Source: Karstenula rhodostoma CBS 690.94 (taxonomy: Eukaryota > Ascomycota > Dothideomycetes > Pleosporales > Didymosphaeriaceae). From it: a stretch of 64,000 bases of DNA. Below the pieces are notes generated by a model. It was not told the origin of the DNA. It saw only the letters and a list, made by a program, of their open reading frames with translations, and made no database searches. Positions 3,682 through 34,228 of the stretch are shown in pieces. Made by a program: the position numbers and the translations under genes. The DNA is taken from assembly GCA_010093485.1 (NCBI GenBank), contig MU001498.1:1790518-1854517 (forward strand). Direction: 5' to 3'. Each line of letters opens with the position of its first letter. Position 1 is the first letter of the stretch.

Positions 3682-4467
3682 ATGACAGCCGAGCTCAAAG
3701 CCCTTTGGTACTTTGCCTATGGCTCCAACATGAGCGCTGAAAAATTCTCTGATGACCGTGGCATCAAACCTCTCGGTAAACTCCGGACTACCGTTCCTGG
3801 CTGGGTTCTTACTATGAGCATTCCCGGTTTACCCTATCAGGAACCGTCATTCAGCTCCGTCAGGCCGCGAGCCGAAGCGGAAACCGAAGAAATAGACGCC
3901 CCCGACGTTGTTGGACTGGCTTACCTCATCACCAAAGACCAGTATCGCAGGATAGTCGGCTCGGAAGGAGGAGGAATAGCGTATCGTGATATTGAACTCC
4001 AAGCTGAAGTGCTCGACAATCATAAATATCCTGGGAAAATTTTGCCCGTGAGGACCCTTGCCGAGGCCATGTCTCGCTCGCCACCTCCGAGACCTAGTAG
4101 ACGGTACATGGTCAGTATCTTAGTCTCCATGAAATGATTAGATACTTAATGCCACTAGAAACTCCTCTTAGATGGGGTTGAAGAAGCGAAGCTGCCGTCG
4201 GAGTACCAGCAGTATCTCCGTGAAATCCCCACATACCAGCCACCATCTTCCTTCTGGGCTGCGGTGGGCGCCAAAATGTTCATTGCTCTGTTCGGTCCAA
4301 TCATGTTGTTTATGGAAATTATTACACATCAGACTATGAAGGACGACGGCACTGCGCCTCGATGGGTGATCTGGCTTGTCCGGTCTGGTATGATGGTAAT
4401 ATGGTCTGTTCATGACTACCTGTTCGCACCTGTTTTTGGAAGAGGGGACGGGATGCTCCGAATGTAG
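3682..4467 (+). CDS. gliK: GliK-like gamma-glutamylcyclotransferase
   Basis: The inferred product has 242 residues from two exons (3682-4114, 4172-4467; a 57-bp intron with GTATCT donor and CTTAG acceptor). The N-terminal motif FAYGSNMS is the substrate-binding signature of the gamma-glutamylcyclotransferase fold. In gliotoxin biosynthesis GliK removes gamma-glutamyl groups from the bis-glutathionylated diketopiperazine after the GST step, and the position beside the NRPS and the C-S lyase fits this. The C-terminal exon has two hydrophobic stretches (around MFIALFGPIMLFMEII and WVIWLVRSGMMVIW), so the protein may be membrane-associated. I chose the ATG at 3682 (GCCATGA); an in-frame TTG lies three codons upstream. 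Confidence 0.88.
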
Positions 4468-4549: not shown

Positions 4550-5922
4550 CTAGCAAACGGACAAATTCCTATTGCTCGAATCATACACAGATTCCATCCT
4601 CCGTAATGCTTCCGCGAGGTCAGAGGGCTGAACGGCAAACCCAACTCTCATCCAGCCCTTTTCACTCTCCGGGCCATGGTATGCTCTCCCAGGGCTTACC
4701 AAAACACCTGACTCCTTTAACCGATCAACGAATGAGGCTTCGTCTTCCCAGCTCCGTGCGGCCGGGCACATTCTTGCAAAGACGTAAATACCCGCGTTGC
4801 ATGGGATATAGGGAATGTCGTGACTCTTCAGGAAACCAGTCAGGGTAGCATATGCTATGGAGAGCCTGCGGGAGTTTAATGCAAGGAGCGAAAGGAGCTC
4901 TGGAGACTTCAAGAGTGCGGTGGTAAAGACTGTGGAAAGACCAGAGATTTGAGCCATAGAGGCCAAGGCGAGCCCAACCGACATTTCTTGGTTGGATTGG
5001 GAGACCATACAGCCCTGGCTTTGTCAGTCATGATCCCCTCTCTCAAACAACAAACATACCATCCTAAACCCACTCTGCCCGAGGTCCTTACTCAGACTCC
5101 AGACCATGTGAACGCGCGACGTATCAACACCCATTTCCACAAGGTCCAGTGAAAGAACCGATGTAAACGGTATGGGTGTCGGCATTTCCGGATTGGGGAA
5201 TATAGATAAAGCGTATACTTCGTCTGAAATGAAGTGAATCTTGTGCTTTTGACAGAAACGCAGGCAGTTCTCTAGTACAGTCTTTGGATAACAAAGCGCG
5301 AGTGGGTTATGTGGATTTGTGATCATCAGGGCTTTTACTGAGCATGTGGAAGTTTTCAGTGCTTCCTCGAGAGCTGGGATAAGCGCGCTAGTCAAGCCTG
5401 CGTCTAGGGTAGGAACAGACACTAAGACAGGCGTCACGGACACTCTTGCGCGAAGCCCAAAATCGAAGCCATTCCAGTAAGGGCCGGGCAGAAGAATTCC
5501 GTCTCCAGGATCGCATATATTGTAGAGAAGGGAGTCGATGCACCCGGATGCACCAGGGGCAACAGCCAAGTGAGATGGTTCAACCCGTCGATGTGGATGG
5601 AAGTAGCTGTTGAAGAAGCTCGCATACGCTTCAAGGAGATCCGGATCGCCTGAAAATCCGATTGGATACGAGAAGTGCTGTAAAGTCAGCAAGCCAAATG
5701 TAGATGGGTTATTGTGCTTACAATCTCCGAGAGATTCTCCACAATCGACGTTTTGCACAATCCAGTCAGCTCCGGTCGTATAAGCCAGTTTTCTGCGGTG
5801 GAAAGGTCTATATTGGCATTCGCCTTGAGATTCCGTTGTCCCACCGCACCCTTGATCTTGGGCATGATTGCTTCCACATTGGAGTGTCCTCTCTCGGAGA
5901 GATGGCCTGTAAGCGACATCAT
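4550..5922 (-). CDS. gliI: GliI-like PLP-dependent C-S bond lyase (ACC synthase-like aminotransferase fold)
   Basis: Three exons (5922-5722, 5677-5060, 5014-4550) give 427 residues; the introns are 44 and 45 bp with GTAAGC and GTATGT donors. The fold-type I aminotransferase pattern is clear: IDLSTAENWL near the N-terminus, YPIGFSGDP, ITNPHNPL, FISDEVYALSIF, and SLSKDLGQSGFRMG with the PLP-binding Lys near residue 264. In ETP pathways the GliI/SirI protein cleaves the C-S bonds of the cysteinyl intermediate to release the dithiol. The start was taken at the first of two adjacent ATGs (5922, 5919). The gene is divergent from the ABC transporter, 250 bp away, and convergent with the GliK-type gene, with 82 bp between stops. 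Confidence 0.93.
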
Positions 5923-6071
5923 TGCGCAAACGCCTCTGAATACTGCCCCAAACACTAGAAGACGATCTGATCGTAATAGAAAGGTTTTCTTGATGTAACA
6001 ATTGCCAGTGTTCATAGACCGCTAGATGTCTGAAGTAGCCCGCGCATGCAGATCCCGTGTCATGCACATTT

Positions 6072-6082: not shown

Positions 6083-6172
6083 AGTGGTATGAACTACCAA
6101 AAATGCTCCGCAAGCTCCGCACTGCCACCCGAAAAGTCTCTCATACCGACGCAGAAGATACCGCACAACAAC

Positions 6173-8784
6173 ATGTCTGCTTTTTTGCTCTGTGTTTACC
6201 CCATTGGGCTGTACGCCGTGCGTTTATTCTCACCGTTCATTCGCTTGCAAGAGAATGCACGGCTGCAGCACGAGCACAAACGCTACCGATGCGATTCAAT
6301 GTGGTTATTACAAACGCTCCTCACCCTAAGCTCGGTATGGCTGAAGTAAACCCTTTTGACGCTCATTGACGGTTATCCCTAGTTTACCAGCAGTGCCCTT
6401 ACAATACGCCCGTTTCTATCAGAACTACGTGGGCATGACAACAGCCGCACCCAGGAAGGTTATCTGGTACTCATCATGTGCGCATCTCGTGGGCATTCTG
6501 ACCATTACTACAGGTTTGCTACATTGCCGTCGCATTCTACTTTGCTGCGGGCCTCCTACCCGATCCTCATGGCCCTTTTTTCCCTATGCAAGTACATTGC
6601 AATAGCTGGGTGTACTCCCTCATCCTCGAGATCATGATAATTCTTTTTCCTACCCAAGCTTCAGAACGAGATATTGCCCACTTCGTACTTGGCATCGTAC
6701 GAGCGGTACTTCTGATATGCATGTTTGGGATTTACGTCAGTGCGAACTACAGCAGTTTGTATGGCATGATAGACGAAGAGGAGGTGGAATCTTTAATTTC
6801 GAATGTCAGTTCAACTGCAAAAAGCGGTTGGTACAACTATGTGGTTGGGTTCCGCGTCCTATTCCCGTACTTGTGGTGAGTGGATGTTACACAAGAAGGT
6901 GATTATATGCTTACTACCCGAGGCCATCCGATTCTCGCAAGCAGCAACTCATCCTCATGGTCAGTTTGTTCCTGATGCTTGCTCAACGGGCTGTCAATAT
7001 TCTTGTTCCGTATCAGATCGAAATTCTCATTGCTTCTCTTGGCATTGGAAACACCAGTTTCAAAGAAATAGGCCTCTACATTTTATATCGCGGTCTCCAG
7101 GGACAGCAAGGGATTGTTGGATCCTTGCGCGCAATTATTTGGATTCCAGTCGGTCAAAGTCTATTCAGAAGGCTCACCTGCGCGGCGTTTGACCATGTAC
7201 TTGGCTTGTCGCTCGATTTTCATCTTAGTAAGCGCCTCGGCGAAGTTATGAGTGCTCTCGGAAAGGGCAGCGCTCTGAATACGTTCCTAGATAGCTTTGC
7301 TTTCCAACTCTTCCCAATGGTGTTTGATCTTGCTGTCGCGGCACTTTATTTTTCAATGCGGTTTGACGCATTCTACTCTTTGATCTTAATTGGGATCATG
7401 TGGAGTTACATCTACACAACAATCTACATGGCGCAGTGGCGTGCCAAAGCACGGCGCGGCATGGCCGTGAAAGACCGTGAGATGGACGCACAAAAGTAAG
7501 CATAGCTTATCCCCTGTGTTGTTTTTTCTGAAATTGCCAGGGTCGACACGATGATGTCGTATGAAACAGTACACCATAACAGCGCTGCGGTGGTTGAGAG
7601 TGCCCGGTTCGGCGAACACGTTCAAGACTACCAAAAGGCAGAATTTTCTGTCCTCTGGTCCCTTAATGCGCTGAATATAGTGCAAAACCTGATTCTAACG
7701 CTGGGTCTATCCCTCTTCATTCTCCTCGCTGCACTCGAGATTGAGATTGGCATACACAAGATCCCTATGCTCGTGAGTGTTCTGGCCTACTTTACTCAGC
7801 TCCAAGCGCCGCTCCAATTTTTTGGGAGCTTTTATAATCAAGTACAAAACAACCTTGTTGATTCCGAGAGGATGCTCGACTTGGTACGTGTTTATTCCTC
7901 TTGAATAATGCAATGCTCATGCCAGGATAGTTCAACCTCAAGCCAACCATAGTGGATTCTCCGAACGCTAAAAGTCTCACGGACTGTGTAGGACGCATAT
8001 CCTTTCGCAACGTCTCATTTGCCTTTGATCATCGCCAGCTAGCTGTTTCCAATTTGTCGTTCACAGTCGAGCCGGGAACCTCCACAGCTATAGTTGGGGA
8101 GAGCGGTAGTGGCAAGTCGACGTGTTTGAAGCTTCTATTCCGATTCTATGACGTAAACCAGGGAAGCATTCAGGTTGACGGACGTGACATACGAGATCTG
8201 CAGATCAGAAGCTACCGCAAGCACCTGGCTGTTGTGCCACAAGAGACGATTCTCTTCAACGCGAGCATTATGTATAACCTGCAGTACGCACGGCTTGATG
8301 CCACAAGGGAAGAGATTTATCAAGTCTGTCGAGCAGCTAGTATACACGATAGAATCATGAGCTTTCCGGAAGAATATGAAACCAAAGTGGGGGAGAGAGG
8401 GATGCGGCTCTCAGGTGGAGAGAAACAAAGAGTCAGTGCCTCATCATATGTCGTCCTAAGCGCTAATGAAAGCAGATTGCCATTGCGAGGGCGATCTTAA
8501 AGAATCCCAAAATCGTTCTCATGGACGAGGCAACTGCGTCATTGGATTCGCACACTGAGAAACAGATTCAAGAATCGTTGGAAGTGGTCACGAAGGCAAA
8601 AACGACTATTGTCATTGCACATCGCCTTTCAACAGTCATAAATTGCGACCAGATTATTGTCCTTCACGAGGGGCGAATTGTTGAGCAGGGAACGCACGAG
8701 GCTCTACTAGGGAATCAGGGCAGGTATGCATCAATGTGGGAGAAGCAGACTGAAACACTAGCCCAGAACGATAGCGACCTCTAA
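6173..8784 (+). CDS. HMT1/ABCB6-type ABC half-transporter
   Basis: Seven exons are proposed: 6173-6345, 6383-6458, 6514-6875, 6923-7495, 7541-7883, 7931-8431 and 8476-8784, giving 778 residues. The N-terminus has extra membrane segments, then comes the six-helix ABC membrane domain (exons 4-5), then one nucleotide-binding domain: GESGSGKST (Walker A, about 565), LSGGEKQR (signature), IVLMDEATASLD (Walker B) and IVIAHRLST (H-loop). Half-size proteins of this layout dimerise in vacuolar or plasma membranes and export organic substrates or metal-thiol conjugates. Here the likely job is export or sequestration of the sulfur metabolite. Introns 3-7 are well supported. The first (6346-6382, only 37 bp) and second (GTTATC donor) were chosen to keep the frame and are uncertain. 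The stop is 2 bp from an inverted-repeat element. Confidence 0.85.
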
Positions 8785-8786
8785 TT

Positions 8787-8933
8787 CTACCTTCGGGGGG
8801 CCGGCCGTTATTCAGTCACGTCGTAGCTCAGCTAATTGAATTTTACTCCTTCTGTTAGCCTAGCTCTCTAACTGGCTCTCAGGCCGTTCCCTCGGCACGT
8901 GACTGAAATACGGCCGGCCCCCCCCGAAGGTAG
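8787..8933. mobile_element. MITE-like element with about 36-bp terminal inverted repeats
   Basis: The left arm (8787-8821) and right arm (8897-8933) are nearly perfect reverse complements. Both begin CTACCTTCGGGGGG going inward, share GGCCGGCCG, and end in CAGTCACGT; the right arm has two more G/C pairs. About 75 bp lie between the arms, so the whole is 147 bp and could fold into a long hairpin. No clear target-site duplication is visible. It starts 2 bp after the ABC transporter stop, so it would sit in that mRNA's 3' UTR and could act in 3'-end formation. Confidence 0.7.
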
Positions 8934-9608: not shown

Positions 9609-11872
9609 CTACACTCTCTCTAGCTTGTACGTCTGGTGGTGTGTCAGGGTGATGGAATGCCGCATGAGCGCAGACTTGTGCACATTAGCTATACCCGCGC
9701 CCAACGGCCCAATCGGAGACTCACATTGGCTCACACCAGCCTTGTTGTCCCAAATCTTGATCAGTGTGACTTCTCTCGTTGTCTGTTTATCAAGATAGAA
9801 CCACTTTTGGTCGTCGTCATAGGTGAATGTAGCCGTCTGCCCTCTCTGCTCAAAGTCACCCTTCAATAGATCGCAGGGGTGCATGTTGGAAGTAGAGCAG
9901 CTTCCATAGTCCATAGTGGCTAGTGGCCAGTCTTGCACAGGTTCGATGAGTGGGCGCCAGACGCTAAGGTGGAGTTAGCAAGATGCTTGTCTGTTCTATA
10001 GAGTGAGTACCTACTTGATTATTTGGACGCGGCCTTCTAATATTGCATCGACGTCTTCTGTATCTGCAACATTCATCTTGAGTCTTCGCACTGCCCCTTC
10101 CAGGGACTGGTCGCAATGCACCTGCAGAAAGTCAGTACCACCACGAGAGGTTCAAAAAAAACATACCATTGTTGCGGGTTGCTCTTTTCCGTCTTCATTC
10201 TCAGTCTGTTCCAGTTCAACCCTTCTTTTTCTCAGTGTGTGGTCGAAGATGATCACGCGTTGGGCCCCTGTTACTTCTTTGATCAGCGACTCCACGTGCG
10301 GATAGTATAATCGCTCGACGGCTCCCTGATTGTTCACTCGTAGAGACTGGATAAGATCTGCCGCCACGTTGTCGTCATGATACTCGAAGCCGTACGTATC
10401 GAGATCAAACTGGGACTTGGTGGGTCTTGCGTCCGTGATTGCGACAGTATAGTCTTTCCACTGGAAGTTCATCCGGTCGAAGCCTTCCACAGGATTGATA
10501 CGGATGTAGAGATTACCACGCTTCGTATCCCAGGGCCCAAGAAAGCGGAGAGTTGCATTTATCGGTCTTGATTCGATCCCATCCACAGCGTGACTTTGCA
10601 GATCATCCCATACTGGTACAAATTCAATCGCCGATGTCCACGCATTGCGAAGCGGATAGATTTTCTGCACCTTCCATCCGGTCTGTGTAGCCAAACGAAT
10701 CCATTGATCCTCGTCCCGCTCCTGACCACCCACAGCCACCATCATGTTCAAGTCCCCATACCTTGATATCCGGCCTGTATGGCCGTCGCGCAGTAGAGAT
10801 TCGAGAATGACCAGGCGACTCAGTCTGGTACGCCGTACCGCGCGACGGATGTTTCTCAGTATAATTGCCGCTTTCTCGTCATCCCAGTCGTGAAGGCACC
10901 ATTTCATAGTATAGACCTCGGAAGAAGGGACAACTTCGAGAAAGTCCCCTGTAACAAGGTGTTCAGGGGGAACACGGTCACCAACATCACGATACTGCCC
11001 GCCCGACGAGTGGAAATTAAGCTTCGCCTGTTCGATAACTTCAGGTAAGTCCAGGATTCCGCCATGCATCTTTTCGTATTTGCGAAGGAGAAGGACAACT
11101 AGGCCACCGCCGCCGCCGCCAATGTCGAGAAAAGAGCATTCGGCTACTTGGTTCCATGGATAGTCTTCTAGGATCCCTGGAGCTTGAGCGATGGCACCAC
11201 TGCTTAGGGTTTGATGCAGCTTAGGAACCCAACCCTGTTGTGTGAAGTATGTGAACATGCTATCATCTGTGCCGTAATTGATCTGGGCCGGGGAGCGCCA
11301 AGTGTCCTTGCCTGTAGCGAGTGGGATTCCGCGCGCCATATCGTAAAACTCGTTTCCATACAGAGTAACCCATGTGTGCCATTGGGTCCAATGATTGGTT
11401 TGCAACAGCGTGGAGACATGGTTGTTAGAGTAGAGTTTAGTCGACGGGTCGTATGCGTAAATTCCTTCATTGTAGAGTGTGCGCATGATCTGCCCGAGTC
11501 TATCCGACCTCGAACCAATCGTCTCTGCTATGGAATGCAGTGGTTTTGGCCCAGAGATGAGGATATCCGAGATTCCTAGTTGTACAGCTGCACAGAGACA
11601 TTTTGTTTTCATGTAGCCTTGCTCATAAGCGGATGAAGGAGGATATATGAGGGCATCGTACCTAAAAAATGATCGGCTAGAACAAGGTGGCCTGGTTCTA
11701 GAAGCAAGCGCACGTCGGATAACAAGTCGAGAGCCTCGTTTGCGAGTTGATGAACAGCAACGTTTGGGAGCTTTTCAGTGTCATGGAGCAAAGAGTAAAT
11801 GTCGTTATCGGCTTTCAAGTGTTGCGAGGTAGCTCTCAACGAGCGGATGAGATCCTGGAGCATATTTTCCAT
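9609..11872 (-). CDS. O-methyltransferase fused to a CmcJ/AsaB-like domain
   Basis: Four exons (11872-11662, 11617-10167, 10121-10015, 9963-9609) give 707 residues; the introns are 44, 45 and 51 bp. Residues 1 to about 420 are a class I plant/fungal-type O-methyltransferase: an N-terminal dimerisation region, the SAM glycine loop LDIGGGGGG (Asp about 235), and KWCLHDWDD with the catalytic-type His near 313. Residues about 425-707 match the CmcJ/AsaB-like family: YIRINPVEG near the domain start, RVIIFDHTLRKR, then VHCDQSLEGAVRRL with His556 and Asp558, and a late VHKSAL. That family is linked to hydroxylation or desaturation in cephamycin, gibberellin-like and aspergillic acid pathways. The reading frame passes through both halves in the large exon 2 without a stop, so the fusion is not an artefact of joining exons. 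The gene is divergent from the MFS transporter, 172 bp away. Substrate and order of action are unknown. Confidence 0.88.
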
Positions 11873-12044: not shown

Positions 12045-13521
12045 ATGGACGGTACTTCACGATATGCAGATGAAGAGACAGCTGGACTTCTCGCCCGGAC
12101 TGAACAGGATCAAGACATTGGTACTTTCAGTGAAGATTCTTTTTGCCCTGATCGTCTCTTGCCTATCGCTCTGCTGGCCGCGTTAGCAATGGCCGCGACG
12201 TCGGCAACAGCGTACTTCGCGTACGCAACCCTCATCTGTCACGATCCTACACACTGCAATGGAGACGAAACAAACAAATACACCGGGATGGTAGCTTTAA
12301 CTACGTGCATGTCGAACATTCTCGGTATGCTAGCCTTGGGATGGCTCCAGAAATTGCTGTCGACCCATCGAAAACTAGGATTGCAGCTCTGGATTCTCTG
12401 CCGCTCGATGAGCGCCGTGATGCTGCTGCTCGGAAGTGAGTGGAAAGCAGAGTTCATGGCTGCCCATGCTTATCTGTAATACAGTCTTTCTAAGAAATAC
12501 CTATGCAGCGCTTTCTGGCCGTATCTTTGAAGGTCTTGCATCCGATAATCTGCTGTTCTTTACCCTCAACATTATATATGCACAGACTGCAAGTAAAGAG
12601 AAGACTTTCGCTCTTATACGATATTCGCTCGCTTTGTACTTGATCGGCATCTCTGTAAGTCCGTTCGTGGCCGGTCTGTTCGAGAATTTTATCGTTAGTT
12701 TCTTCATGGCGATTTGCCTCTTTGCAATCACCATAGGATACGTGCAGCTCGTCATACCAGGTGCTATTGAGGGCAGGTTCGAAACAGGAGAAGCCCGGGC
12801 ATATGACACCTGCAGCGATGATGAGATACGAGTTCAAATCTCACTCTGTCGATTGAAGCAGTGGTTTGGCCGGGTATGCAGCTGCATGCTTGCCCCGTCG
12901 GTACTTTTCAAGAAACAACCCTTGTTTCTCTTCGTCGGCACCAGCTTGTTCTTGTACAACGTGGTTCAGTCGTACATTTTCAATGCGCTCCTGGTGCATA
13001 CATCTATCCAGTTTGGGTTCGCAAGCCGGGAGAACGGGCTGCTGGTGTGCATTGCACACTCTGTTGCTGCTCTGTACATCGTATGTAGCATGCGTGTTAA
13101 CCTAAGCCTTACCAAGAAAGAGGGCAGCACGCAAAGCGCAGGCAGTTTCCAAGGCAGGGTTGGAATGCTGACGGTTACATCCATCTTGGTTCAGAGTCTA
13201 TCGGTTGCCGGCATAGGAATGTCCGATCGACCTTGGCAAGTGTACACGGCGACGGTGTTCCTCGCCCTAGGCCTGTCTACGCCTTCGTTCATCAAAGTTT
13301 ACTCCCTCGGACATTTTGATGGTCACGAGAAAGCGGCAGCAATCACTGCTTTGGCAATGATGGAGGGCTTGGGAAGTGTAGTGGGGCCTTTTGTGTTGGG
13401 AGGCTGGCAGACGTACATGTACAGCAGAAGAGGGGTGTTCTTCGGCGCGTCTGCGGTTCTGGGGGCTGCAGCTGCCTCGTTCGGGATTGGTTTCGCAAGG
13501 ATGTGGATAAGGCGCGAGTGA
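12045..13521 (+). CDS. Major facilitator superfamily transporter
   Basis: Two exons (12045-12435, 12485-13521; GTGAGT donor, ACAG acceptor, 49-bp intron) give 475 residues. The start has a strong context (ACCATGG) and an in-frame ATG lies 18 codons upstream. A polar N-terminal tail of about 40 residues is followed by roughly twelve hydrophobic segments, for example LLPIALLAALAMAATSATAY and FLFVGTSLFLYNVVQSYIF. The segment GRIFEGLASDNLLFF fits the MFS helix-4 region. It is probably an exporter or vacuolar importer for an intermediate or product, and no known ETP transporter is clearly recalled by it. An alternative acceptor at CTATGCAG would shorten the protein slightly. Confidence 0.8.
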
Positions 13522-13778
13522 GGGAAGCACGCTGCAAGACAAGTGGGCTTTCGTTCCGCTGCCTAGTATATTAACTTGCATGCCAAGATTTGGTGAATGT
13601 GGCCAAATTGCTATCGTACCTTCGCTGCATTCATCCGCCTCGTCGGCGCACTGATGCGAAGTGTACGCTGCCGGTTGCGCCTCGTCCATACATCTGCAAG
13701 AATTAGTATAACACTATCGCAAGATTACCGTATCTCTCATCATCCCAAAAACCTTTGCGCCATCAGCCACCAACAGCC

Positions 13779-14998
13779 ATGTCGGATAGCGCGCAGGGCC
13801 AGGCACCCAAAAACCCCAAGCTAAGATCAGCCTGCGACCAATGCAACCTCTCAAAGGTGTGTACATGTATCTCAGCTTTTCGCTCGTCTCCTCGCGTTCT
13901 TCTCACCGCTGCTAGGTCAAGTGCAGTGGTCATCGCGACGGCTGCACTCGCTGCCGCAACCTGCGCGTCGAGTGTGTCTATGGAGAGTCGCGCGTAGGAA
14001 AAGTGCAGCCCCCGCGCAAACGCAAGAAATCTGAACAACACACCGTCTCAATTGAGTCGCCCATCCGGATTGATGAAGGCTCGTTGGAAGTTGCGCTGCA
14101 GCAGTGGCCTTCTGACACGTGGGGCGCAACATCGTGGGAAGGCGACACGCTTTCCCTCAACGACATGTTTGAAAACTTGGATGCGACCGTCGACACCAAC
14201 AACAATTCCAGCGCGGACGACACTCTGGATTCCATGATAAGCCTTGATGCGCTCGGCTCACAGCCGTCTCCGGCGAGCCGTCTGCTCTCCGGCTCCTCCA
14301 CCACCTCATCGAGAGATTCCGCCTTGTCTATACTCGAGTCGAATCGCAACTCAGGGTCATCCGTTACCCCAAAAGTACCCCACCCGCTTCCTACTTTGCC
14401 ATCTAGCACCAATTTGCCCTCTTCACGCACAGCAGCACAGAGCGAGCCAATCCTGACAAGGTCCAAGATGGACAGCAAATGTTTCCTAGCCTGCACACAA
14501 ATTCTCATCACCCTCGAGAACTACATCGTCTCAGAACTCAAGGCACTAGATCTGATCCTAAGCGTGGTCCGCAAAGCTTGCGATGAGCTTCGCCGATTAA
14601 TACAGTACCAGCAGGAGTCACGGTGCGATCGGTGTTTATTCTTGTTTGTAGCCACCATGCACCAAGTGGTGGAGTTACTAGACGCAGGTTCCCGCTGCAT
14701 GAACGACAATGAAGACGCGCACCATGATATGCCGGGTGCCTTGAACTCAGGATTCATTCCCTCGTTTGGCTTTGGTGGCTTTTCGGTGTCGGCCGAGGAC
14801 CAGCGTTCCTGGAAGGTCCACCTCATTCGAAGAGAGACCCAGCATGTGGATGAAGCATTCAAATGTCTCGTTGCGCTTTCCAAACTTGGGCCGCCCTCCT
14901 GTGCCCCGACAGATCCCGAGAGCGTGAAGCAGAGGGAAAACTGTATAACGGGATTGCAAACTCGGTTCAAAGAAATCTGCGAGAGGATGTTTGAGTGA
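13779..14998 (+). CDS. Zn2Cys6 transcription factor, probable cluster regulator
   Basis: Two exons (13779-13856, 13916-14998) give 386 residues. The binuclear zinc cluster is complete (Cys19, 22, 29, 36, 39 and 46; spacing C-X2-C-X6-C-X6-C-X2-C-X6-C), followed by the basic run RKRKK. The 59-bp intron splits the cluster just after SK, a common place in this family. The middle is rich in Ser/Thr/Asn and the C-terminal half has cysteine-containing helices like AflR-type regulators. GliZ and SirZ are Zn2Cys6 proteins that activate ETP clusters, so this is the best candidate for the factor reading the TCGG-N3-CCGA motifs. I found no copy of that motif in its own 257-bp upstream gap. Confidence 0.88.
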
Positions 14999-21070: not shown

Positions 21071-21974
21071 CTATTCCAGCCCATGCCCGTAAGTAGGCCC
21101 TTTCTCCAAGACACCCTGCACCGCGGGCCGCGCCAGCATTTTCTCGCTCCAAGCCTGGATATTCGGCCACCTCTGAATATCTACGCTTAAGAACTTGAAC
21201 ATCCATGGCATAGCAAAGGGAAAGTAGGATAGATCAGCTATCGACGGACGATCTAGGAGCGCTATGTAATTCTGGCCGGGTTCTGCCAGCCTCTTATCCA
21301 GCTTGTCCCATTGTACAAGGCAGTTGGCATGGAGTCTGCGCACGAGTTATTAGGCTCGTCAAGATCCCCACAGCAGGGGCTGTCACTTACTTAGCCACCG
21401 TTTTCGGGAGGAGTTCAGGGTTCTGTCGGTCCGGGTAGCCCTTGAAGAAATACAGCCAGTATTTCGCCGTCGCACTGTAATTTGCGCTTGTCAGAAACCT
21501 AAAGTTCGTGCAAGTAGTGTCGTCGCGTACCCCAGCCCAGCAGTCTGGTACGCGGTCCAGGACAGCACCTGCGCTCGCTCCCAGGCTGTGCGCCCACTCC
21601 ACGCTCCCTGTGTATCGAACCGCTCTGCAAGGTACTGTATGCACGCAGTGCTCTCAAATACCACTATTTTCTGCTTGGTGACGGGGTCTTGGTCTTTCAG
21701 CGCGGGCACGTAGCGCTCGGGATGCACATCGTAGAACCACTCGTCTTTAGTGTTGATTACAGAGAGGACGTGCGGGACCTGGAGCTCCTCTGCGAGGATC
21801 AAAGGCTTGATGTAGTTGATGTAGTTGGTTTGGTCCGCTGGGAAACGCAGTCAGATTGGCGGGTGGAAAGGGGTAATATCATGCACCTCTGACAATGTAC
21901 AGCACCACCCGACCGTCGTATTCTACGTCACCTCTGACGACCTCTCCGCTGGTTTTCGCCCGTGTGTCTGCCAT
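21071..21974 (-). CDS. gliG: GliG-like glutathione S-transferase
   Basis: Four exons (21974-21887, 21837-21531, 21474-21391, 21335-21071; introns of 49-56 bp) give 247 residues, close to GliG length. The N-terminal thioredoxin-like domain includes VVLYIV, then PLILAEELQVPH, ERYVPALKD and VVFESTACIQYLAERF (the Glu-Ser pair binds the gamma-glutamyl part of GSH). The C-terminal helical domain has RPSIADLSYFPF and ARPAVQGVLEKG, typical of Ure2p/theta-type fungal GSTs. In gliotoxin biosynthesis GliG attaches two glutathiones to the oxidised diketopiperazine, which introduces the sulfur. The gene is divergent from the GliC-type P450 that would make its substrate, with a perfect regulator motif between them. 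Confidence 0.92.
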
Positions 21975-24189: not shown

Positions 24190-25020
24190 CTATTTCCATG
24201 CAACCACGACATGTGCTTCCATGTCCAAGCGAACAGCACCGCTGTCCAGTTTCCGATAGTTCTCCCAGTTTTGCACCCAATCGACTATGAAGTCAATGAC
24301 TTCATCCCAGCGTTGCTCGTCTTGGGCAATCCACCCGTTTTGCGGGCACCCCAGAAAGCTCCATACAGCAGTAGCCCAGAAGCGAAGGTCTGCGACCTCC
24401 AGCACTGCCTTGGTCCTACCGAAGCTCAGTCCTCGCGACGTAAAACCCACCCCCTCGAGTAGACTGCGCAAATCCTCCGCGTTGAAGCTGCCCCGGGCGA
24501 TGGCAGGTGGAAGGGCACTTTGCCCCGAGCGCAGAAACTCGTGCGCGGCCTTCACGACTTGTACGGGCAACGGCGCGTCCCAAATGCTGAGCACCGCCAC
24601 TCCGCCGTCTCTCAAGGTGCGATGGATGCCTTCAGCCACGGCGGCGTCCTCCTTGATAAGCATAATGGCGAAGTTGGTAAATGAGTGCGTGAACTTGGCA
24701 GGTGGGAAGCTTAACGCCTCGGACAGCATGACCTCTGCTAGCACCGGCCAAGAAAGCGAGGTAGCCTTCTTGCTCATGGTGTCGATCAGTGATGGCACCT
24801 TGTCTGTGGCATGTATGACGATGTTCTTGGTGTGTGCTTCCATGAGGGCGACAGTCATGGCACCGGAGCCACATGCATTGTCGTGGATAATTGACCCTGG
24901 AGGTATGGGCGGGATAAAATCCAAAAGGTGGCGTGCGACCTGTTCTGTAGTGTCTCCGGAGATCTGCGTGAAGAAGGCTAGATCAGGCGGAAGGCACTGT
25001 TTGGGTACAAAGCGAGCCAT
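24190..25020 (-). CDS. gliN: GliN-like SAM-dependent N-methyltransferase
   Basis: A single exon of 276 codons plus stop; the start ATG at 25020 has context ACCATGG. The class I methyltransferase core begins with SIIHDNACGSGAMT (glycine loop at residues 44-57), then the acidic end of strand 2 in HATDKVPSL, FTNFAIMLI, and the later sheet LRDGGVAVLSIWDAP. Its length and the HDNACGSG loop resemble GliN/SirN proteins, which N-methylate the diketopiperazine amide. It shares a 260-bp promoter gap with the next methyltransferase but is only distantly related to it. Its reaction here could also be O- or S-methylation. Confidence 0.82.
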   Translation of the reverse strand: MARFVPKQCLPPDLAFFTQISGDTTEQVARHLLDFIPPIPPGSIIHDNACGSGAMTVALMEAHTKNIVIHATDKVPSLIDTMSKKATSLSWPVLAEVMLSEALSFPPAKFTHSFTNFAIMLIKEDAAVAEGIHRTLRDGGVAVLSIWDAPLPVQVVKAAHEFLRSGQSALPPAIARGSFNAEDLRSLLEGVGFTSRGLSFGRTKAVLEVADLRFWATAVWSFLGCPQNGWIAQDEQRWDEVIDFIVDWVQNWENYRKLDSGAVRLDMEAHVVVAWK

Positions 25021-25280
25021 GGTTGAGTTCCACCCATTCCGCGGGAAGCAATTGATGGCGTGTTAAAACGTTCGCCCAGGCACGGTGGGTGTCACTTCAC
25101 TACCACGTTCACATGCGGCCCCCAATCCAAATCTGTAAGCCCGGAGCCCGGGCAGAAGACGGCTGAAGTTTCGAGAATTGAAGAAGCCATCATGGTCGCT
25201 GTGCAAAATCGTTGGAAAGTAAGGAAAATCGAAACCGCAAGTCTAGGCTCTGCGCTTCGTCGACTGGCTTTTCCGACATC
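25021..25280. promoter_or_regulatory. Shared promoter of two methyltransferase genes
   Basis: A 260-bp divergent gap. It has the palindrome CCGG-AGC-CCGG at 25141-25151, two bases from TCGG-N3-CCGA, so only a weak candidate site. Confidence 0.35.
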
Positions 25281-26221
25281 ATGTCTCGCGACGCAGAAGA
25301 AGAGGAAAAGTACTTCATGGAGGGCAATGCAGACGAGCTGCAACGACTCGCCTACCAACACGAAGTCATAAAAGCCCACGTCGGAAAGTTCGTCCTCGTC
25401 CCAATGGACATTTTTACACCTGGGCTACGAATCCTAGATTCGGCCACGGCGGACGGTATGTGCGGGCTTCCCATGATGAAGAAATCCGCTCATGGGTCAA
25501 GGCCTCTGGCTGCGCGACATGTGCAGCACGCTCCCCAAGGAAAACACATATGTCGGCATTGACATAATGCAAGAATACTTCCCGCCCAGGTCGCAGTGGC
25601 CGGATAATGTGGAGCTCCATATTCAATCTATCACCAAACCATGGCCGGAGCCCTGGGCCGAAAGCTTTGATCTCGTTCACCAGCGGTTTGCGCTTCCCGC
25701 AGCGGGGAAGTCTGGGGTCACAGGGGCGCTCAAAGGGCTGATAGGTCTCATGAAGCCCGGAGGCTGGATCCAGATGATCGAGGCAGATCATTCTGTTTAC
25801 ACTGGTCCGGCAATGGGCGAACTCTTCGAGCTGATAACGGACGTTTTCGCGGCCATAGACGTGCCGTGCGACATTGCCAAGGAGGTTAAAGGCATGTTAC
25901 AGGAAGAGGGCCTCGAACAGGTGGAAGAAAGGGTTTTTGATGTGCCGCTTGGAGTTAGAAACCCTGACACTGAGCTTGGCAGGAAAAGCGCTTGGGCTTT
26001 TCTCAAGGGCACCGAAGGCCTTGTCGGGGCTGCAAAAGGTAAGCTCTTATTCGCTGTTGTTTCTTGGTCGGGTAGATAAGCTCACACTTCTAGGATTACC
26101 GAACTTTCCGCTCACGCCGGACAAGGTGGATGCTCTGGCACGGCACGTTCAACAAGAGTTAGACCAAGATGGAGGAGTCAATCGCATTTATGTGGCTTGG
26201 GGCCGAAAGCCGTTCAAGTGA
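25281..26221 (+). CDS. SAM-dependent methyltransferase, copy 1 of a duplicated pair
   Basis: Three exons (25281-25455, 25502-26038, 26094-26221; introns of 46 and 55 bp) give 279 residues. The Rossmann start is ILDSATADGLWLRD, then YVGIDIMQEYFP, SFDLVHQRFALP and GLMKPGGWIQMIEAD. The last three are typical of LaeA/UbiE-like fungal methyltransferases of secondary metabolism. The usual D-X-G-X-G-X-G loop is replaced by D-S-A-T-A-D-G. The copy at 29503-30449 has the same loop, the same two intron positions and an exon 2 of the same length (537 bp), so the two are paralogues. S-methylation of the dithiol or O-methylation of a ring hydroxyl are both possible. Confidence 0.85.
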
Positions 26222-27850: not shown

Positions 27851-28124
27851 GGGCGAGATTCAGGCCGAGGTAGCTGTGCAGTGAGAGAGTGAGAGTTTGT
27901 AAAGTGAAACAGTGGATATGAGAAGGTGGAGATAGAGTAGAGTGAGAGCGGGGCACATGATATGATCAAGTATGGGGAAGGCAGGGAAACCAAGGCAACT
28001 CGGTTGCAGCGCCAAGAGCGTTGATGAAAAGCCCCCATCTGCAGGTGGTGCGGCGCGACGACCCGCAGGTGTCTCGGTCTGGTCATGGTAGAGTTGCTGC
28101 CTGGCCGAGTTACACAAGCGCCGT

Positions 28125-28135
28125 CCGGGCCCCGA
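28125..28135. promoter_or_regulatory. ETP-type regulator motif CCGG-GCC-CCGA
   Basis: One base from TCGG-N3-CCGA, in the 390-bp shared promoter of the two divergent oxidoreductase genes (starts 27850 and 28241). The rest of this gap shows nothing else recognisable. Confidence 0.5.
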
Positions 28136-28240
28136 GAGGAGAACCAAATACGTGGGCAGAGTCACCATGCTTGAAAATTTGTACGTGCAGGTATCCATTC
28201 AGGTGTACAGTTGCATTCTGCTCGCATACCTTAGATAGCC

Positions 28241-29256
28241 ATGGCCCTTACCCACAGCCAGTCAGTTGTGTCCGACGTGCTTGTCATCGGCGGCAGCCAC
28301 GCCGGCCTGTCGGCTGCCCTTACTCTCTATCGCGCCTTACACACCACTGTCATCTTTGATGCGAGCACTCCGCGCAACAACTACCAGACCCCCATTCGCT
28401 TGACGCCCACCTGGGAGCACCAGCACATTGACGACTTCAAACAAGCCGCCAAGAAAGAACTGCAAGAAGCCGGCTACACCACCTTTGTTGAGGCGCATGT
28501 CGATAAAGTCAGCAGATCCAATGGCCTGTTTGAGCTGGTCGACAGCAACGGCACGACCTGGCAAGGCCGCAAGCTGTTGCTAGCCACGGGATCCAAGGAC
28601 ATCTTCCCTGCGATCCCTGGCTACGACGCCTTATATGCTCGCCGCATGTGTGTTGCTGCTGCCCGCCCTCATGGCCCACATTTATCTGATATGCAGCCAG
28701 TTTCCAGTGCATGTTCCAGTTCGGCTACGAGCACAGAGGCACCCAGTCGGCTGGACTCCTCGCAGTCGATGGCCTTGCCAATGTCTTTCACGCGACTATG
28801 CTCGCCGACGACGGCAACAAATACGCCGACAAGATGACGGTGTACACCAACAACGATCCCCATCTCGCCACCGAAATATCTGCGGCACTGCAGACATCGG
28901 ACATCACCGTCGACGACAGGAAGATAAAGGCGCTGTGCCCGGGGCCTGAAGGCGCCCAAGTCAAGATTGACTTTGAGGACGGTTCCAGCACCATCGAGGG
29001 CTTTATTGTGCACCGACCTGACACCGAGCTTGACCGGCTGCTGATCGACCAGCTCGGCTTGGACATCTCGGATAGAGGCGACATCGAAGTCATGCCGCCC
29101 TTTTGCCAGACGAGTGTTCCAGGCGTCTATGCTGCGGGTGACTGCGCAAGCCCCGCCAAGATCATCCCTAATGCTATTAGCATGGGAGCGTATGCTGGCT
29201 GCGGCCTCGCAAGGGAGCTGCCGAATCGAGTTACACGCCACGTAGTTGTTAATTAG
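28241..29256 (+). CDS. GliT-family flavoprotein with non-canonical CXXQ motif
   Basis: Two exons (28241-28647, 28701-29256; 53-bp intron with CTGAT branch) give 320 residues. FAD-binding VIGGSHAGLSAALTL, the late VYAAGDCASPAK and overall length match the GliT family. The redox site reads IFQCMFQFGYEHRG: Cys139 is kept, but the position of the second Cys is Gln142. It therefore should not form the usual active-site disulfide. From memory, CXXQ members of this family have been described in ETP pathways with alpha,beta'-disulfide bridges (TdaE of pretrichodermamide biosynthesis), where they act as flavin oxygenases that trigger sulfur migration; that role here is inference. The acceptor was set at GCAGCCAG to keep the frame; an earlier CAG 4 bp upstream would break it. 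The intron position equals that of the CXXC paralogue. Confidence 0.9.
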
Positions 29257-29502: not shown

Positions 29503-30449
29503 CTAGTTGGGCCTCTGGCCCCATACAGCTCGCAAATACACTGCGCCTCCCCGCTCTGTCAACTCCGCGGAAAGGTCCTCGGGCAGGCTGTCCAGCGTCT
29601 CATGAGAGAGTGTCATTTTCTCTTGCGGGAGAGCTGGTCAGTGTTAGCGGACGCTCTAAACACTGATTTGTATTGGAGTGTACTTTTTGCGAATTTGGAC
29701 AGCGGCGTGGCGACCTGCTTGTTCATCTGGACGCCTTTACGAGCCAAGTCGGCCTCGGGGTTCCTCGCCCCGTATTTGATCTCGATGAGCTTCTCCTGCA
29801 AGTTCACGAATCCTGCCTCTTGCAACCACCCCTTCGCCTTGTTGATGTCGCCGAAACGAGCGCCGATTGCGCCAAACGTGTCTCGCATGAGTTGGATGTA
29901 GTTCTGCACTGCTGGGCCGTCGTCTGGGTCCGCCTTGTCCTCGATCTCGATGAGCTGAATCCAGCCACCGGGTTTGACAAGTGCGGACAGATTCTGGACG
30001 ATGTTCTTGGTGTCCGGATAGCCTCCGAATACCAGGCGCTGATGCACGAAATCGAAACTCGAGGCGAAATCGGGCGGCCACGGCTCATTGATATCTTGGG
30101 TCTGGTACTGGAAGTTTGCGGGATGCTCGCTGGGAAGGTCGGCAGAAGCAATGTCGCACCCGATGAAAGTGTGGTTGGACGAGTCTGCTACCGAAGACGC
30201 AAAGTCTCTGAGCCACAGCCCTGCACCCGGTAAGTTATTGTTCACGGTGTCTCAGGCGGGATGCGTATTACCATTGGCAGTCGCCGAGTCGAGAATGCGG
30301 CGGGGACTGGCGCTGAAGTCGATGGGCGGAAGAATCAGACTACCGCCTGGCATCGAATCCTTAATGATATCGTGGTTGGCAGAGAGACGACTTATCTCGT
30401 CATTTTCTGCCATAATAAAATCTGGCTGTGTCGGATCGAAGCCTCCCAT
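29503..30449 (-). CDS. SAM-dependent methyltransferase, copy 2 of a duplicated pair
   Basis: Three exons (30449-30272, 30220-29684, 29633-29503; introns of 51 and 50 bp) give 281 residues. Shared blocks with the copy at 25281 are ILDSATANG followed by LWLRDF, FDFVHQRLVFGG, LVKPGGWIQLIE and the C-terminal VWGQRP (AWGRKP in copy 1). Exon 2 is 537 bp in both. The glycine loop is again D-S-A-T-A-N-G. The last intron has a CTAAC branch site and a CCAG acceptor. A longer N-terminus from upstream in-frame codons is possible but unlike copy 1. Together with the two oxidoreductases it forms the outer part of an inverted gene-pair duplication. The methyl acceptor is unknown. Confidence 0.85.
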
Positions 30450-31849
30450 CTTGTCGGTTGTTGCAAGCTGGAAGCTAGATTGCAAATGAGTGCTATTCGA
30501 AAATTTGTCACTGCTCCGCTCTCTGATACTGTCTATACTACGATATGCCCTGATTTGGTATTTGCTACTAGGTGATCTTGACATTCGGTTGCCGAGCTAA
30601 TCTCATCATCCCGGCTTCCGAACAGTGTACGTTGGATGATTATGTGTGGAGTTTGCATCTTTCTCCAATTGAGACAGCTGCAATCTTGATTAGGTGTCGC
30701 AGGAGAAGCCAAACGCAGTCGTTATCTTGCCTCCCATGGACTTTCCTTTGCTCTTGCTTCCTCAGAGATTTTGGCAGAGCACGAAGCCGGTCGGCTGGCC
30801 CAGCCAGACAGCCAGTGTATGTTGTTGTGCTGGCAGGCCGCAACACAGTCGCGAACCTTGTATCACGGCAGGATATCCTGGTGATATTCAAGAAAAGAAA
30901 GGGGGTTGAGACACTAGCAGATCTCGTCTGGTAGCAGCAAAAGTCACAGAGCTTCCAGTGCACAGGCTTGGTTAGCGGTGCCCTACACCTAATTGTTGAG
31001 CTTTTTGAAAGTGGACACACTTGTTTCCATGAACAGATACGCAGCAAAGTGGTTTCGCTCAGCATTTGCACAGCATGCTCCCACGAGAATCCGTTAGATA
31101 TCGTACTAGTTTTTGCTGTATGTCGTCTTTCAGAGAAATATGGTAGACTCTGGAGACGCCAAGAAGTGATTGAACAGGTGGCTAGGCGCGCAAATTAGAA
31201 TTTTGCATAGAACGAGGCGCAGGTTCGAAATGGGTGGGCATCTTTTCTGCCTTGCACATACCCGGGTTTCGGAAGCCAATACAAAGTCCTGTTTGAGTGC
31301 CGCGGGGTCTATATTTTGATTGGATTTGCCCCGCAGATTGCCATATCTGAAAGGTTCCAATGGGGCGGGACGGACTCGGCAATTCATCAAATCGATGCAC
31401 CCGCTCCCTCACCGCCACAGCCGTTTCCGACATCATGTTGCGAGCTCAAGCACTTGGCCCACTTCTTCCGAAGCCTTTCATGCTCTTTTGCAAACAATCT
31501 GGCCCCTTCCCGGGCCGATGTCAGACTGTGCCATATCGAGAAGGCATGATCTACATCCGTCATCATGTTGTGCGACATTTGAGAGCGCACAGGTTTCAAC
31601 GGTCATCTCCCGTGGTATTGGTACCGACGTTAGGGTTTTTTCATATTGGCATATTGCAGTGCCGCCCCAAAAATAGGGCATGTGTTGTTGTCCTGGGGCT
31701 GTGCCGCAATATGCCCGGCACGCTGCCTTTATGCAGCCGCGAGCCTTTTCAACTCAAGTCCAACGCTAGAACCCTCAGCCCACTTCGGCGTAGTAATACC
31801 ATCACCTGCGGCCTTCTACATCACGATAAATCTTTCATATCACCTTCCT
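30450..31849. other. 1.4-kb intergenic region, no supported gene
   Basis: Between the methyltransferase and the MFS exporter no complete gene is visible. It holds the motif CCGG-CTT-CCGA at 30611-30621. A short plus-strand frame near 30,694 reads AVVILPPMDF, close to SLILPPIDF in the neighbouring methyltransferase, which may be a relic. A minus-strand frame at 31599-31387 (AFSIWHSLTSAREGARLF and on) looks protein-like but is only 70 codons and matches no family I know. Confidence 0.45.
30611..30621. promoter_or_regulatory. ETP-type regulator motif CCGG-CTT-CCGA
   Basis: One base from TCGG-N3-CCGA, about 160 bp upstream of the start of the second methyltransferase copy (30449). Confidence 0.45.
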
Positions 31850-33562
31850 ATGTCGGTTCCTTTGGAATCCGCGATGGTGGAGGCGGCGGAAGCGGCGGAA
31901 GCAAAATCGCCGCCTGCAACCACGAAGAGCGAGGAAGAAGCACAGCAAGACAGCATCGGAGAGAAGACCACCGAACAAGAGAAGCTTCAGAACCCTCCAA
32001 AGTCAAAGCGTAGCTGGAGGTTCTGGCTCGTCTTCACTTCACTATGTCTGATTTCCTTCATCTCAGCCGTCGACTCCACCATTGTTACGGTAGCGCTGCC
32101 TACAATGACGCGCGCCATTGGTGGGGAGAAAGAATACATTTGGTTGGCCAACGTTTTCGTTTTCGCGGCAACAACAACCCAGCCTTTGTTTGGGCAGGTC
32201 TCCAACATTTTCGGTCGCCGCTATCCTATGCTAATATCTATCGCTTTGTTTGCTCTTGGAAGTGGCATCACCGGGGGAGCAAATGGAGTCGCTATGTTTA
32301 TCGCCGGGCGAACAGTGCAGGGTTTGGGATCAGGTGGCTTATTCGTTCTACTGGACTTGATTGTATGCGATTTGGTTCCGCTTCGTGACCGAGGCAAATA
32401 CTTGGCGTTCATGCTCTCAACAGCAGCTGTTGGAACAGTTATCGGCCCAATCATCGGGGGATCTTTAACTTCAAACTGGCGATGGATCTTTTACCTCAAC
32501 CTCCCAATATCCGGTATAGCGCTTGCCGCCATGTTCGCCTTTCTGAGGGTGAAGTACAACCGCGACCCGAGCTGGAGGCATTCTCTTATGCGCGTTGACT
32601 TTTTGGGCAACTTTATCTTTATCGCCTCCACCTGCGCACTCCTTTTTGGCTTGATCACAGGTGGAAATTTGCACCCTTGGTCGTCTTGGAGAGTTATCTT
32701 GTCATTGGTGCTTGGGATCCTCGGTTGGATCGGCTTCCACATTCACCAGGCCTGGTTTTGCAAGGAACCCAGCGTACCGCCGCATCTTTTCAAGAACCGG
32801 ACATCCGCTATCGGTTTTGTACTTTGCTTCACCTCGTCGATGCTGCTCGTCTGGGTTGTCTACTTCCTTCCGCTATATTTCCAAGCAGTGCTTGGGGCAT
32901 CGCCAATGCGAGCCGGTGTTGACTTTTTGCCGTACACCGCATTTGTGGTGCCTTTTGGAATGGCTGCTGGTGGATACTTGTCCAAGGTAGGGAAGTTCAA
33001 ACCCTTGCATTGGGTGGGCTTCGCTCTGAGCTCTATTGGATGCGGCCTCTTGTCAATACTAGACGAGACATCCTCCAAAGCCCGGTGGGTGTGCATTCAA
33101 ATACCTGTCGCGGGAGGGACCGGCATCGTAATGACAGCGCTGTTGACTTCAACACTTGCCGCACTGCCGGAGAAAGATGTGGCTGTCGCCACGGCGACAT
33201 ATTCCTTCTTGAGAAGCTTTGGCTTTGTCTGGGGTGTGACACTGCCTTCAATCATCTTCAATGGACAGTTCGACAGCCGCCTTGACGAGATTTCAGACCC
33301 AGCCGTGCGAAACGTACTCAGGAACGGGCAGGCGTACAGTTATGCTAGCGGTGGATTTGTCCATCAGCTGCCCTCGGAGACGCGTCAAGAGGTTATCCGA
33401 GTATACGTCCACGCTCTCTGGGCCCAGTGGATCGCAGCTGCAGCCTTCGCCATTTTTAGCTTCTTCCTCGTCTTTGTGGAGAAGCACGTGGAGCTAAGAA
33501 ATGAATTAAACACGGAATTCGGCCTTGACGAGATGGAGAAACCGAAAGCAGATAAGAGTTAG
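31850..33562 (+). CDS. gliA: GliA-like MFS exporter (DHA2, 14-helix type)
   Basis: A single exon of 570 codons plus stop. A hydrophilic N-terminal tail of about 60 residues, rich in Glu/Ala/Ser/Lys, is followed by about 14 hydrophobic helices. DHA2 marks are clear: ISAVDSTIVTVALPTM in helix 1, FGRRYPML in loop 2-3, GRTVQGLGSGGLFVLLDLIV in helix 4 and GPIIGGSLTSNWRWIFYLNL in helix 5. GliA is the gliotoxin exporter and most ETP clusters carry one such protein, so export and self-protection are likely. I chose the ATG at 31850, right before the acidic tail; the frame stays open 204 bp further upstream but that part looks non-coding. This is the last intact gene before the AT-rich block. Confidence 0.9.
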   Translation: MSVPLESAMVEAAEAAEAKSPPATTKSEEEAQQDSIGEKTTEQEKLQNPPKSKRSWRFWLVFTSLCLISFISAVDSTIVTVALPTMTRAIGGEKEYIWLANVFVFAATTTQPLFGQVSNIFGRRYPMLISIALFALGSGITGGANGVAMFIAGRTVQGLGSGGLFVLLDLIVCDLVPLRDRGKYLAFMLSTAAVGTVIGPIIGGSLTSNWRWIFYLNLPISGIALAAMFAFLRVKYNRDPSWRHSLMRVDFLGNFIFIASTCALLFGLITGGNLHPWSSWRVILSLVLGILGWIGFHIHQAWFCKEPSVPPHLFKNRTSAIGFVLCFTSSMLLVWVVYFLPLYFQAVLGASPMRAGVDFLPYTAFVVPFGMAAGGYLSKVGKFKPLHWVGFALSSIGCGLLSILDETSSKARWVCIQIPVAGGTGIVMTALLTSTLAALPEKDVAVATATYSFLRSFGFVWGVTLPSIIFNGQFDSRLDEISDPAVRNVLRNGQAYSYASGGFVHQLPSETRQEVIRVYVHALWAQWIAAAAFAIFSFFLVFVEKHVELRNELNTEFGLDEMEKPKADKS

Positions 33563-33899: not shown

Positions 33900-34228
33900 C
33901 CATGGGACGACAACGCAACATACGCGGTGTTCCGCAATGTGCTTGAATACGATGTCACAGATGATACCAAAGCGTTCAAAGCCGCCATGCTAGACGGCAA
34001 ACGTTGCGGTAAAGGCTGCAACGGGTCTACGCTCAATAACGCCATCGTGTACATACCTCCAGGCACGCACTTGATCTCGACTACCATTCCCATGCCGTTC
34101 GGATGCAAGTCATTGGAGATAAAAACGGCAGACCAACCATTCTGGCCTCCAAATTGTTGATTGGGATGGGGGTCCTGTCTAAGGACGAGTATACGGGCGG
34201 AGGATCACGGAATTCGTACCGTCTCTAA
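33900..34228 (+). pseudogene. GH55 glucan 1,3-beta-glucosidase fragment with frameshift
   Basis: An N-terminal piece of a pectate-lyase-like GH55 domain: YDVTDDTKAFKAAM, GKGCNGSTLN and IVYIPPGTHLISTTIP in one frame up to about 34,100, then VIGDKNGRPTI, GMGVLSKDEYTGGG in another frame from about 34,103. Both blocks are in the family order, so one reading frame has been broken by a shift. There is no upstream exon and no continuation to full length (the family is several hundred residues long). It is a dead remnant unrelated to the ETP pathway, at the edge of the AT-rich block. Confidence 0.75.

Follow-up and report, generated by a model that had tools for sequence, protein, structure and literature searches.

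What does a GliT-family flavoprotein do when the second cysteine of its CXXC motif has become a glutamine, and why should it be encoded beside a relative that keeps both cysteines? The question is raised by a pair of genes in 64,000 nucleotides of contig MU001498.1 (positions 1790518-1854517) of Karstenula rhodostoma CBS 690.94 (Pleosporales, Didymosphaeriaceae), a stretch that we refer to as the window. An earlier note on this DNA had read the CXXQ protein as an enzyme of changed function rather than a decaying copy, and had suggested that it helps to make an epidithiodiketopiperazine (ETP) with a rearranged sulfur bridge. We know of no described metabolites of this fungus, and a literature search with the species name returned no mention of Karstenula rhodostoma among the matches listed.

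Splicing of the window sequence, with 28241-28647 joined to 28701-29256 on the plus strand across a GT..AG intron (28648-28700), gives a GliT-fold flavoprotein of 320 residues in which the motif reads F137-Q138-C139-M140-F141-Q142 and is followed by F143. The public gene model of the same strain (P0001) is identical to this protein, and the five nearest relatives among the matches listed (P0002-P0006, 65-73% identity) all carry Gln, which makes a sequencing error at Gln142 very unlikely. The Gln142 codon occupies bases 17-19 of exon 2, the 18-base stretch spanning the motif occurs once in the 64-kb window (28702-28719), and reading the sequence by eye revealed no other acceptor from which a Cys at position 142 would result. 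Cys139 and Gln142 thus stand as described. Of the circumstances named in the earlier note as fatal to its reading, a place in the canonical clade combined with a sequencing error at Gln142 is contradicted by the relatives and by the trees below, and another acceptor restoring a Cys was not seen by eye. That the protein is an ordinary GliT which has lost its Cys through sequencing error or mis-splicing is a reading we reject as having virtually no probability left: the public model is identical, the relatives share Phe143 as well as Gln142, and the protein lies outside the canonical clade in the trees described below.

The spliced minus-strand gene next to it encodes the divergently oriented paralogue with H-C-L-F-C that had been described, so that a CXXC and a CXXQ enzyme do lie side by side, head to head, in an ETP-type cluster. 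The introns of both genes fall at matching alignment positions, in phase 2 within an Ile codon, in keeping with the intact intron position claimed for the CXXQ gene, and the 390 bp between them may serve as a shared promoter. In the trees the CXXC neighbor falls on the CXXC side with the Lophiotrema protein P0157 (68% identity); among the matches listed, other rows reach at most about 52% identity to it. The methyltransferase genes at 25182-26221 (+) and 29613-30596 (-), similar by eye, lie on either side of the flavoprotein pair as if one block had been duplicated and inverted. Elsewhere in the same genome (G000:C5:1195650-1196582, L015, seen with ∼1.5 kb on each side) is another GliT-like protein, 35% identical and with a CLAC motif.

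AlphaFold2, run with a 49-row alignment, returned a confident and intact model of the CXXQ protein (mean pLDDT 94.4, pTM 0.89), and the top PDB folds found with it by Foldseek were AclR (7br0) and GliT (4ntc), at a TM of about 0.90 and 35-37% identity. Of the two FAD motifs, both of which had been called intact, the second is so (G277-V-Y-A-A-G-D283), whereas the first reads G-G-S-H-A-G, that is, GxSxxG and not GxGxxG; Ser19 of this loop recurs in 19 of the 27 CXXQ rows of the same branch among the matches listed. Judged from its sequence, the protein probably binds FAD.

Relatives for the alignments and trees were the best 120 of 664 and the best 120 of 650 protein matches. In a 72-row alignment (the two window proteins and 70 database proteins no shorter than 250 residues, one of which is identical to the window's), the second motif residue is Gln in 41 rows, Thr in 15, Cys in 14, and Arg in 1, with 1 not aligned; in a 139-row alignment (proteins of 285-345 residues out of 201, plus five window and PDB rows), it is Cys in 90, Gln in 40, Thr in 5, and Arg, Ser, or His in 1 each, with one unaligned. 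Because column 142 served to group the rows, its Gln in the CXXQ rows is given by definition, and the other columns are independent of the grouping. Among the matches listed, all 40 CXXQ rows have Phe in column 143 and none of the 82 canonical CXXC rows does: His is found in 65 of the latter, Lys in 9, Asp in 3, Arg and Leu in 2 each, and Glu in 1; similarly, Asp173 is found in 40/40 versus 0/82 rows, Arg307 in 40/40 versus 2/82, Tyr30 in 39/40 versus 0/82, Met140 in 37/40 versus 0/82, and Arg53 in 32/40 versus 0/82. At column 53, 80 of the 82 canonical rows have His, and this His is kept in 8 of the 27 CXXQ rows of the window protein's branch, which are all eight exceptions to Arg53 there. 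Column 138, His in 80 of 82 canonical rows, is Pro in 35, Gln in 4, and His in 1 of the CXXQ rows. Because columns 143, 138, 53, 173, and 307 differ consistently between the two groups, the site is rebuilt rather than simply damaged; the retention of the altered residues in relatives and the confident, intact predicted fold support a change of function over decay.

In GliT and in thioredoxin reductase, the first Cys of the motif faces the substrate, and the second, the one lost in CXXQ proteins, faces the flavin; by analogy, Cys139 would be the thiol on the substrate side. Compared with GliT of the gliotoxin pathway (4ntc, CXXC), the window protein has the same fold and length (TM 0.90-0.92, 35-36% identity), but its second Cys and the next residue are replaced: where a GliT-type dithiol oxidase has CXXC and then a polar residue, it has C139-M-F-Q142-F143. 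An improbable reading of this change is that the gene is a remnant of a GliT duplication whose product is redox-dead and perhaps only binds or protects a dithiol intermediate; disulfide exchange with the flavin probably requires the two residues that are gone. However, Phe143, Asp173, and Arg307 are invariant in the 40 CXXQ rows, which by their species names come from several fungal orders, the predicted fold is confident, and the second FAD motif is intact, none of which is expected of a relaxed gene.

The trees cover part of the family: one of 134 rows (the 139-row set minus 13 distant rows plus 8 longer CXXT rows) and one of 77 of these rows with 200 bootstraps. In the 77-row tree, the window protein belongs to a superclade of CXXQ, CXXT, and CXXC proteins (58 of the 77 rows) that separates from the canonical proteins with a support of 100/99; the split has a support of 99 in the 134-row tree and of 99 (SH-aLRT) once the motif region is taken out along with seven further discriminating columns. 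Neither tree places the window protein in the canonical GliT clade, and the smallest branch above six rows around it in the 77-row tree has Gln in 17 of 17 rows (99/94). The superclade has two branches. The first is all CXXQ (13 rows of the 134-row tree, 10 of the 77-row tree) and includes the Trichoderma camerunense protein P0121 (CMYQ); no row labeled TdaE is among the rows used, and from its genus and motif we take P0121 to be the probable orthologue of the sulfur-moving enzyme TdaE and its branch to be TdaE's. The second, which we call clade B, comprises 48 rows, 27 of them CXXQ (including the window protein), 13 CXXT, and 8 CXXC, with a support of 96 in the 134-row tree and 95/96 in the 77-row tree. 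The trees thus put the window protein outside the canonical clade and apart from AclR, as a member of the sister of the TdaE-type branch and not inside the branch of P0121. The AU test does not reject a tree in which all 37 CXXQ rows form one clade (p 0.281), though only 4% of the 200 bootstrap trees bring these rows together.

As described in one study (PMC12028603), TdaE is a noncanonical CXXQ protein (CMYQ) that converts an alpha,alpha'-disulfide to an alpha,beta'-disulfide via an ortho-quinone methide, a step preceded by those of TdaR, TdaF (an acetyltransferase), and TdaP (a P450), which bears out the CXXQ motif and the bridge shift that the earlier note had ascribed to TdaE; by the same account, alpha,beta'-bridged ETPs known so far are few. 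According to another study, the bridge shift depends on a second TrxR, whose motif is CxxH or CxxQ (PMC12881047). The window protein (CMFQ) resembles TdaE of Trichoderma hypoxylon (pretrichodermamide/gliovirin pathway) in its motif, shares a superclade with the Trichoderma CMYQ protein, though in the sister branch, and carries Tyr30, Arg53, Met140, Phe143, Asp173, Lys176, Arg307, and Glu308 in common with P0121; both the TdaE pathway and the window cluster encode a bridge-closing flavoenzyme, an acyltransferase, and P450s. They differ in gene content, and the window protein differs from the TdaE type in having Ser19 in the FAD loop and Gln138 where 35 of the 40 CXXQ rows have Pro; among the matches listed, it is 45% identical to the Aspergillus floccosus protein P0056 of the TdaE-type branch. 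On these sequence grounds we consider it fairly likely, with real room for doubt, that the CXXQ protein is a TdaE-like disulfide-migrating flavoenzyme. The product of the cluster would then probably have an unusual sulfur bridge, because the CXXQ active site resembles that of a known sulfur-moving enzyme. The interpretation in the earlier note is thus partly supported; its oxygenase activity and its epicoccin- or gliovirin-like product are conjectural.

The function of the window protein may nevertheless differ from TdaE's, because its branch is a sister branch that in the best trees also holds CXXT and CXXC rows. It could be a noncanonical ETP flavoenzyme of another kind, one using Cys139 and the flavin for an oxidation, an elimination, or a spirocyclization that leaves no alpha,beta'-bridge. 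Its branching apart from the TdaE type, next to CXXT and CXXC members, favors this, as does AclR of the aspirochlorine pathway (CXXH), which reportedly combines sulfur migration with spiroaminal formation. We nonetheless hold it to be unlikely, if well short of negligible, as the discriminating active-site residues are common to the TdaE-type branch and absent from AclR and GliT. AclR is the top fold match and, like the window protein, has an altered second motif residue, but this is His and not Gln142, and AclR has none of Tyr30, Arg53, Met140, Phe143, Asp173, and Arg307; since it lacks these markers and lies on the canonical side of the 77-row tree, across from the window protein, its CXXH change is best seen as independent.

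The flavoprotein pair lies within an ETP-type cluster (Table 1), with NRPS, GliG, GliI, GliK, and GliT types of core function encoded within ∼35 kb. Two of these assignments are putative: the YGSN protein is taken from its motif to be the GliK-like gamma-glutamyl cyclotransferase, and the PF00155 enzyme, from its Pfam family, presumably fills the GliI role. The first exon of the GliK-like gene gave no Pfam match and no useful PDB match, and an NCBIfam scan of ten window frames gave no match. A GliJ-type dipeptidase (PF01244) was found neither in the cluster nor elsewhere on its contig, and a search of the genome led to two loci only, on contigs C15 and C20. The public model of the MBOAT acyltransferase (P0202) is shorter, at 302 aa. 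The O-methyltransferase frame, extended to 9612 by eye, appears to encode an unusual fusion, in which residues 409-519 match PDB 7de2 (E 1e-18).

Table 1. Genes and other features of the cluster, in window coordinates
Feature	Position	Strand	Basis and details
NRPS start, T-C-A-T-C, single A domain	1..3241, on to L009:8619 left of the window	-	single frame without introns; Pfam
GliK-like gamma-glutamyl cyclotransferase, putative	3682..4467	+	two exons; YGSN motif
GliI-like PLP enzyme (C-S lyase type), putative	4550..6010	-	PF00155 on two frames
ABC transporter	6165..8784	+	PF00664, PF00005; ends by eye
O-methyltransferase with NvfI-like domain in the same frame	9612..11774	-	PF00891; PDB matches, 10155-11774 frame
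Multi-pass membrane protein, probably transporter	12050..13521	+	frames read; no Pfam match above chance
Zn2Cys6 transcription factor (probable), GliZ-like position	13750..14998	+	weak PF00172, below curated cut-off
Fungal rhodopsin-domain protein	between the Zn2Cys6 factor and the MBOAT gene
MBOAT/wax-synthase acyltransferase, 402 aa	17432..18774	+	PF13813; introns 18131-18205, 18293-18351
Cytochrome P450	19123..20650	+	PF00067 on two frames; ends approximate
GliG-like glutathione S-transferase	21074..21850	-	PDB GliG E 7e-21 (one exon); GST_N and GST_C Pfam
Cytochrome P450	22640..23875	+	PF00067 E 4e-38
Methyltransferase, weakly like PDB 5jgj/5egp (UbiE/COQ5 family)	24193..25062	-	
SAM methyltransferase	25182..26221	+	weak Pfam, frames read
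Canonical-type GliT-like flavoprotein, 312 aa	26862..27850	-	Y-H-C-L-F-C motif; intron 27409-27458
Divergent intergenic region, 390 bp	27851..28240	.	sequence; between the two flavoprotein genes
CXXQ flavoprotein, 320 aa	28241..29256	+	intron 28648-28700; P0001 identical; AlphaFold2/PDB fold
SAM methyltransferase, by eye similar to 25182-26221	29613..30596	-	PF13489
MFS efflux transporter	31849..33562	+	PF07690 E 5e-42

Pfam finds one AMP-binding domain, two Condensation domains (one in the window and one in L009, to its left), and one PP-binding domain in the NRPS, whose second T domain was recognized by eye from a GGSS motif. In a published survey of NRPSs that combine a single A domain with two C domains, such proteins form three groups (mainly siderophore, mixed, and 278 that are mainly cyclo(Phe-Phe)), a PP-C-A-PP-C order is inferred for 243 proteins, and siderophores and other products are also made (PMC12881047). 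The window NRPS has a single-A architecture in common with cyclo(Phe-Phe) ETP synthetases and the same order as those 243 proteins, and the cyclo(Phe-Phe) group is favored for it because of the GliG- and GliI-like neighbors. As described in the same study (PMC12881047), boydine and other homodipeptide ETP clusters have a single-A NRPS and GliK-, GliI-, and GliG-type genes, as here, and the boydine cluster also has a membrane-bound O-acyltransferase; in contrast to the window cluster, the flavoproteins reported for them carry CXXC, also in clusters with two, and the boydine cluster includes a PKS.

Put together, the genes suggest a pathway in which the CXXQ protein would be a dedicated FAD enzyme that edits the sulfur bridge instead of closing it. 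The single-A NRPS would make a symmetric cyclic dipeptide, probably cyclo-Phe-Phe, into which P450, GliG-like, GliK-like, and GliI-like enzymes would install two thiols, and the CXXC neighbor would close the alpha,alpha'-disulfide. The CXXQ enzyme, which probably acts after this neighbor and which keeps only the first Cys (Cys139), having lost the second together with the next polar residue (mostly His in canonical proteins, now Phe143), could then shift one sulfur to the beta' carbon upon departure of a beta' leaving group, as published for TdaE. The leaving group may be an acyloxy group, possibly supplied by the MBOAT enzyme.

The linkage of this acyltransferase to CXXQ proteins in relatives was gauged from contigs of equal size and not from gene neighborhoods. 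A first set of 142 of 219 proteins gave 129 distinct sizes, 11 of them shared, each within one named species, and the closest unequal pair differs by 124 bases; the remaining 77 proteins gave one further coincidence (1496 bases, two short contigs), which was left out, and no new flavoprotein-acyltransferase match on these shorter contigs. By this measure, a CXXQ protein lies on one contig with the acyltransferase in Karstenula, Lophiotrema (where the CXXC orthologue P0157 is also present), Zopfia, Lojkania, Hypoxylon cercidicola, and Hypoxylon CI-4A, which are the best six of 18 acyltransferase matches. For three of the 18, the protein on the same contig is of another type, CXXC in Nemania and Gnomoniopsis and CXXS in Apiospora, and nine match no flavoprotein contig compared. 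Among the matches listed, the acyltransferase is found on 6 of 21 clade-B CXXQ contigs and on 0 of 10 TdaE-type contigs. Because it also accompanies CXXC and CXXS proteins, and because the boydine cluster, too, has such an enzyme, we reject the acyltransferase as a specific marker of sulfur migration. Pairs of flavoproteins occur elsewhere: a TdaE-type CXXQ protein and a CXXC protein share a contig in a Phaeosphaeriaceae strain, and a clade-B CXXC protein and a canonical protein have consecutive locus tags in Pestalotiopsis fici.

As a CXXQ bridge-shifting enzyme is already known, the window protein would add a member to a known kind; what is less expected is how broad the sister branch is and that it includes a CXXT group. 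In clade B, Asp173 and Arg307 are present in nearly all rows checked and Phe143 in most. We tentatively raise the possibility, which we regard as rather doubtful, that clade B is a family of bridge-editing flavoenzymes in which the second motif position (Gln, Thr, or Cys) sets the outcome, so that its different branches would make differently shifted or cyclized bridges, at least one of them undescribed. The CXXT and CXXC members of the superclade are natural comparisons for the role of that residue. The signature Gln142 plus Phe143, Asp173, and Arg307 marks 40 candidate rows, the window cluster with its adjoining CXXC partner being one; if the proposed function is right, strains that make bridge-shifted ETPs could be predicted from the genome alone.

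The 13 CXXT relatives (P0027, P0035-P0038, P0042, P0044, P0046, P0048, P0055, P0060, P0061, and P0069) form a clade (100/99) with His138, Asp173, and Arg307 in 13 of 13 and Phe (9) or Arg (4) at column 143. Single GliT relatives with CXXS (P0173, Apiospora marii) and CXXR (P0109, Colletotrichum truncatum) are on the canonical side of the 134-row tree; the former is the CXXS protein taken to be on the same contig as an acyltransferase relative.

Two features of the surrounding DNA should also be mentioned. Between the ABC transporter and O-methyltransferase genes lies an element of ∼150 bp (8787-8933) that looks like a MITE; its inverted arms are complementary at 100% over 14 nt and at 93% over 27 nt, and two further copies were found, on contigs C11 (88%) and C12 (82%). 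The cluster is bordered by an AT isochore (36090-64000), where GC content falls abruptly from about 54% to about 15%, (CA+TG)/(AC+GT) is 0.00-0.04 compared with 1.2-1.3 to the left, and TA/AT is 1.34-1.46 compared with about 0.7; CpA/TpG is almost gone, a RIP-like pattern of an extreme kind. No stop-to-stop frame of at least 120 aa is found beyond 35711 in the window. At the isochore edge are a P450 piece (34731-36015, +; weak PF00067) with a heme-binding end and no clear start and, at ∼33900-34157, a piece that by eye resembles pectate lyase, both of them probably decayed.
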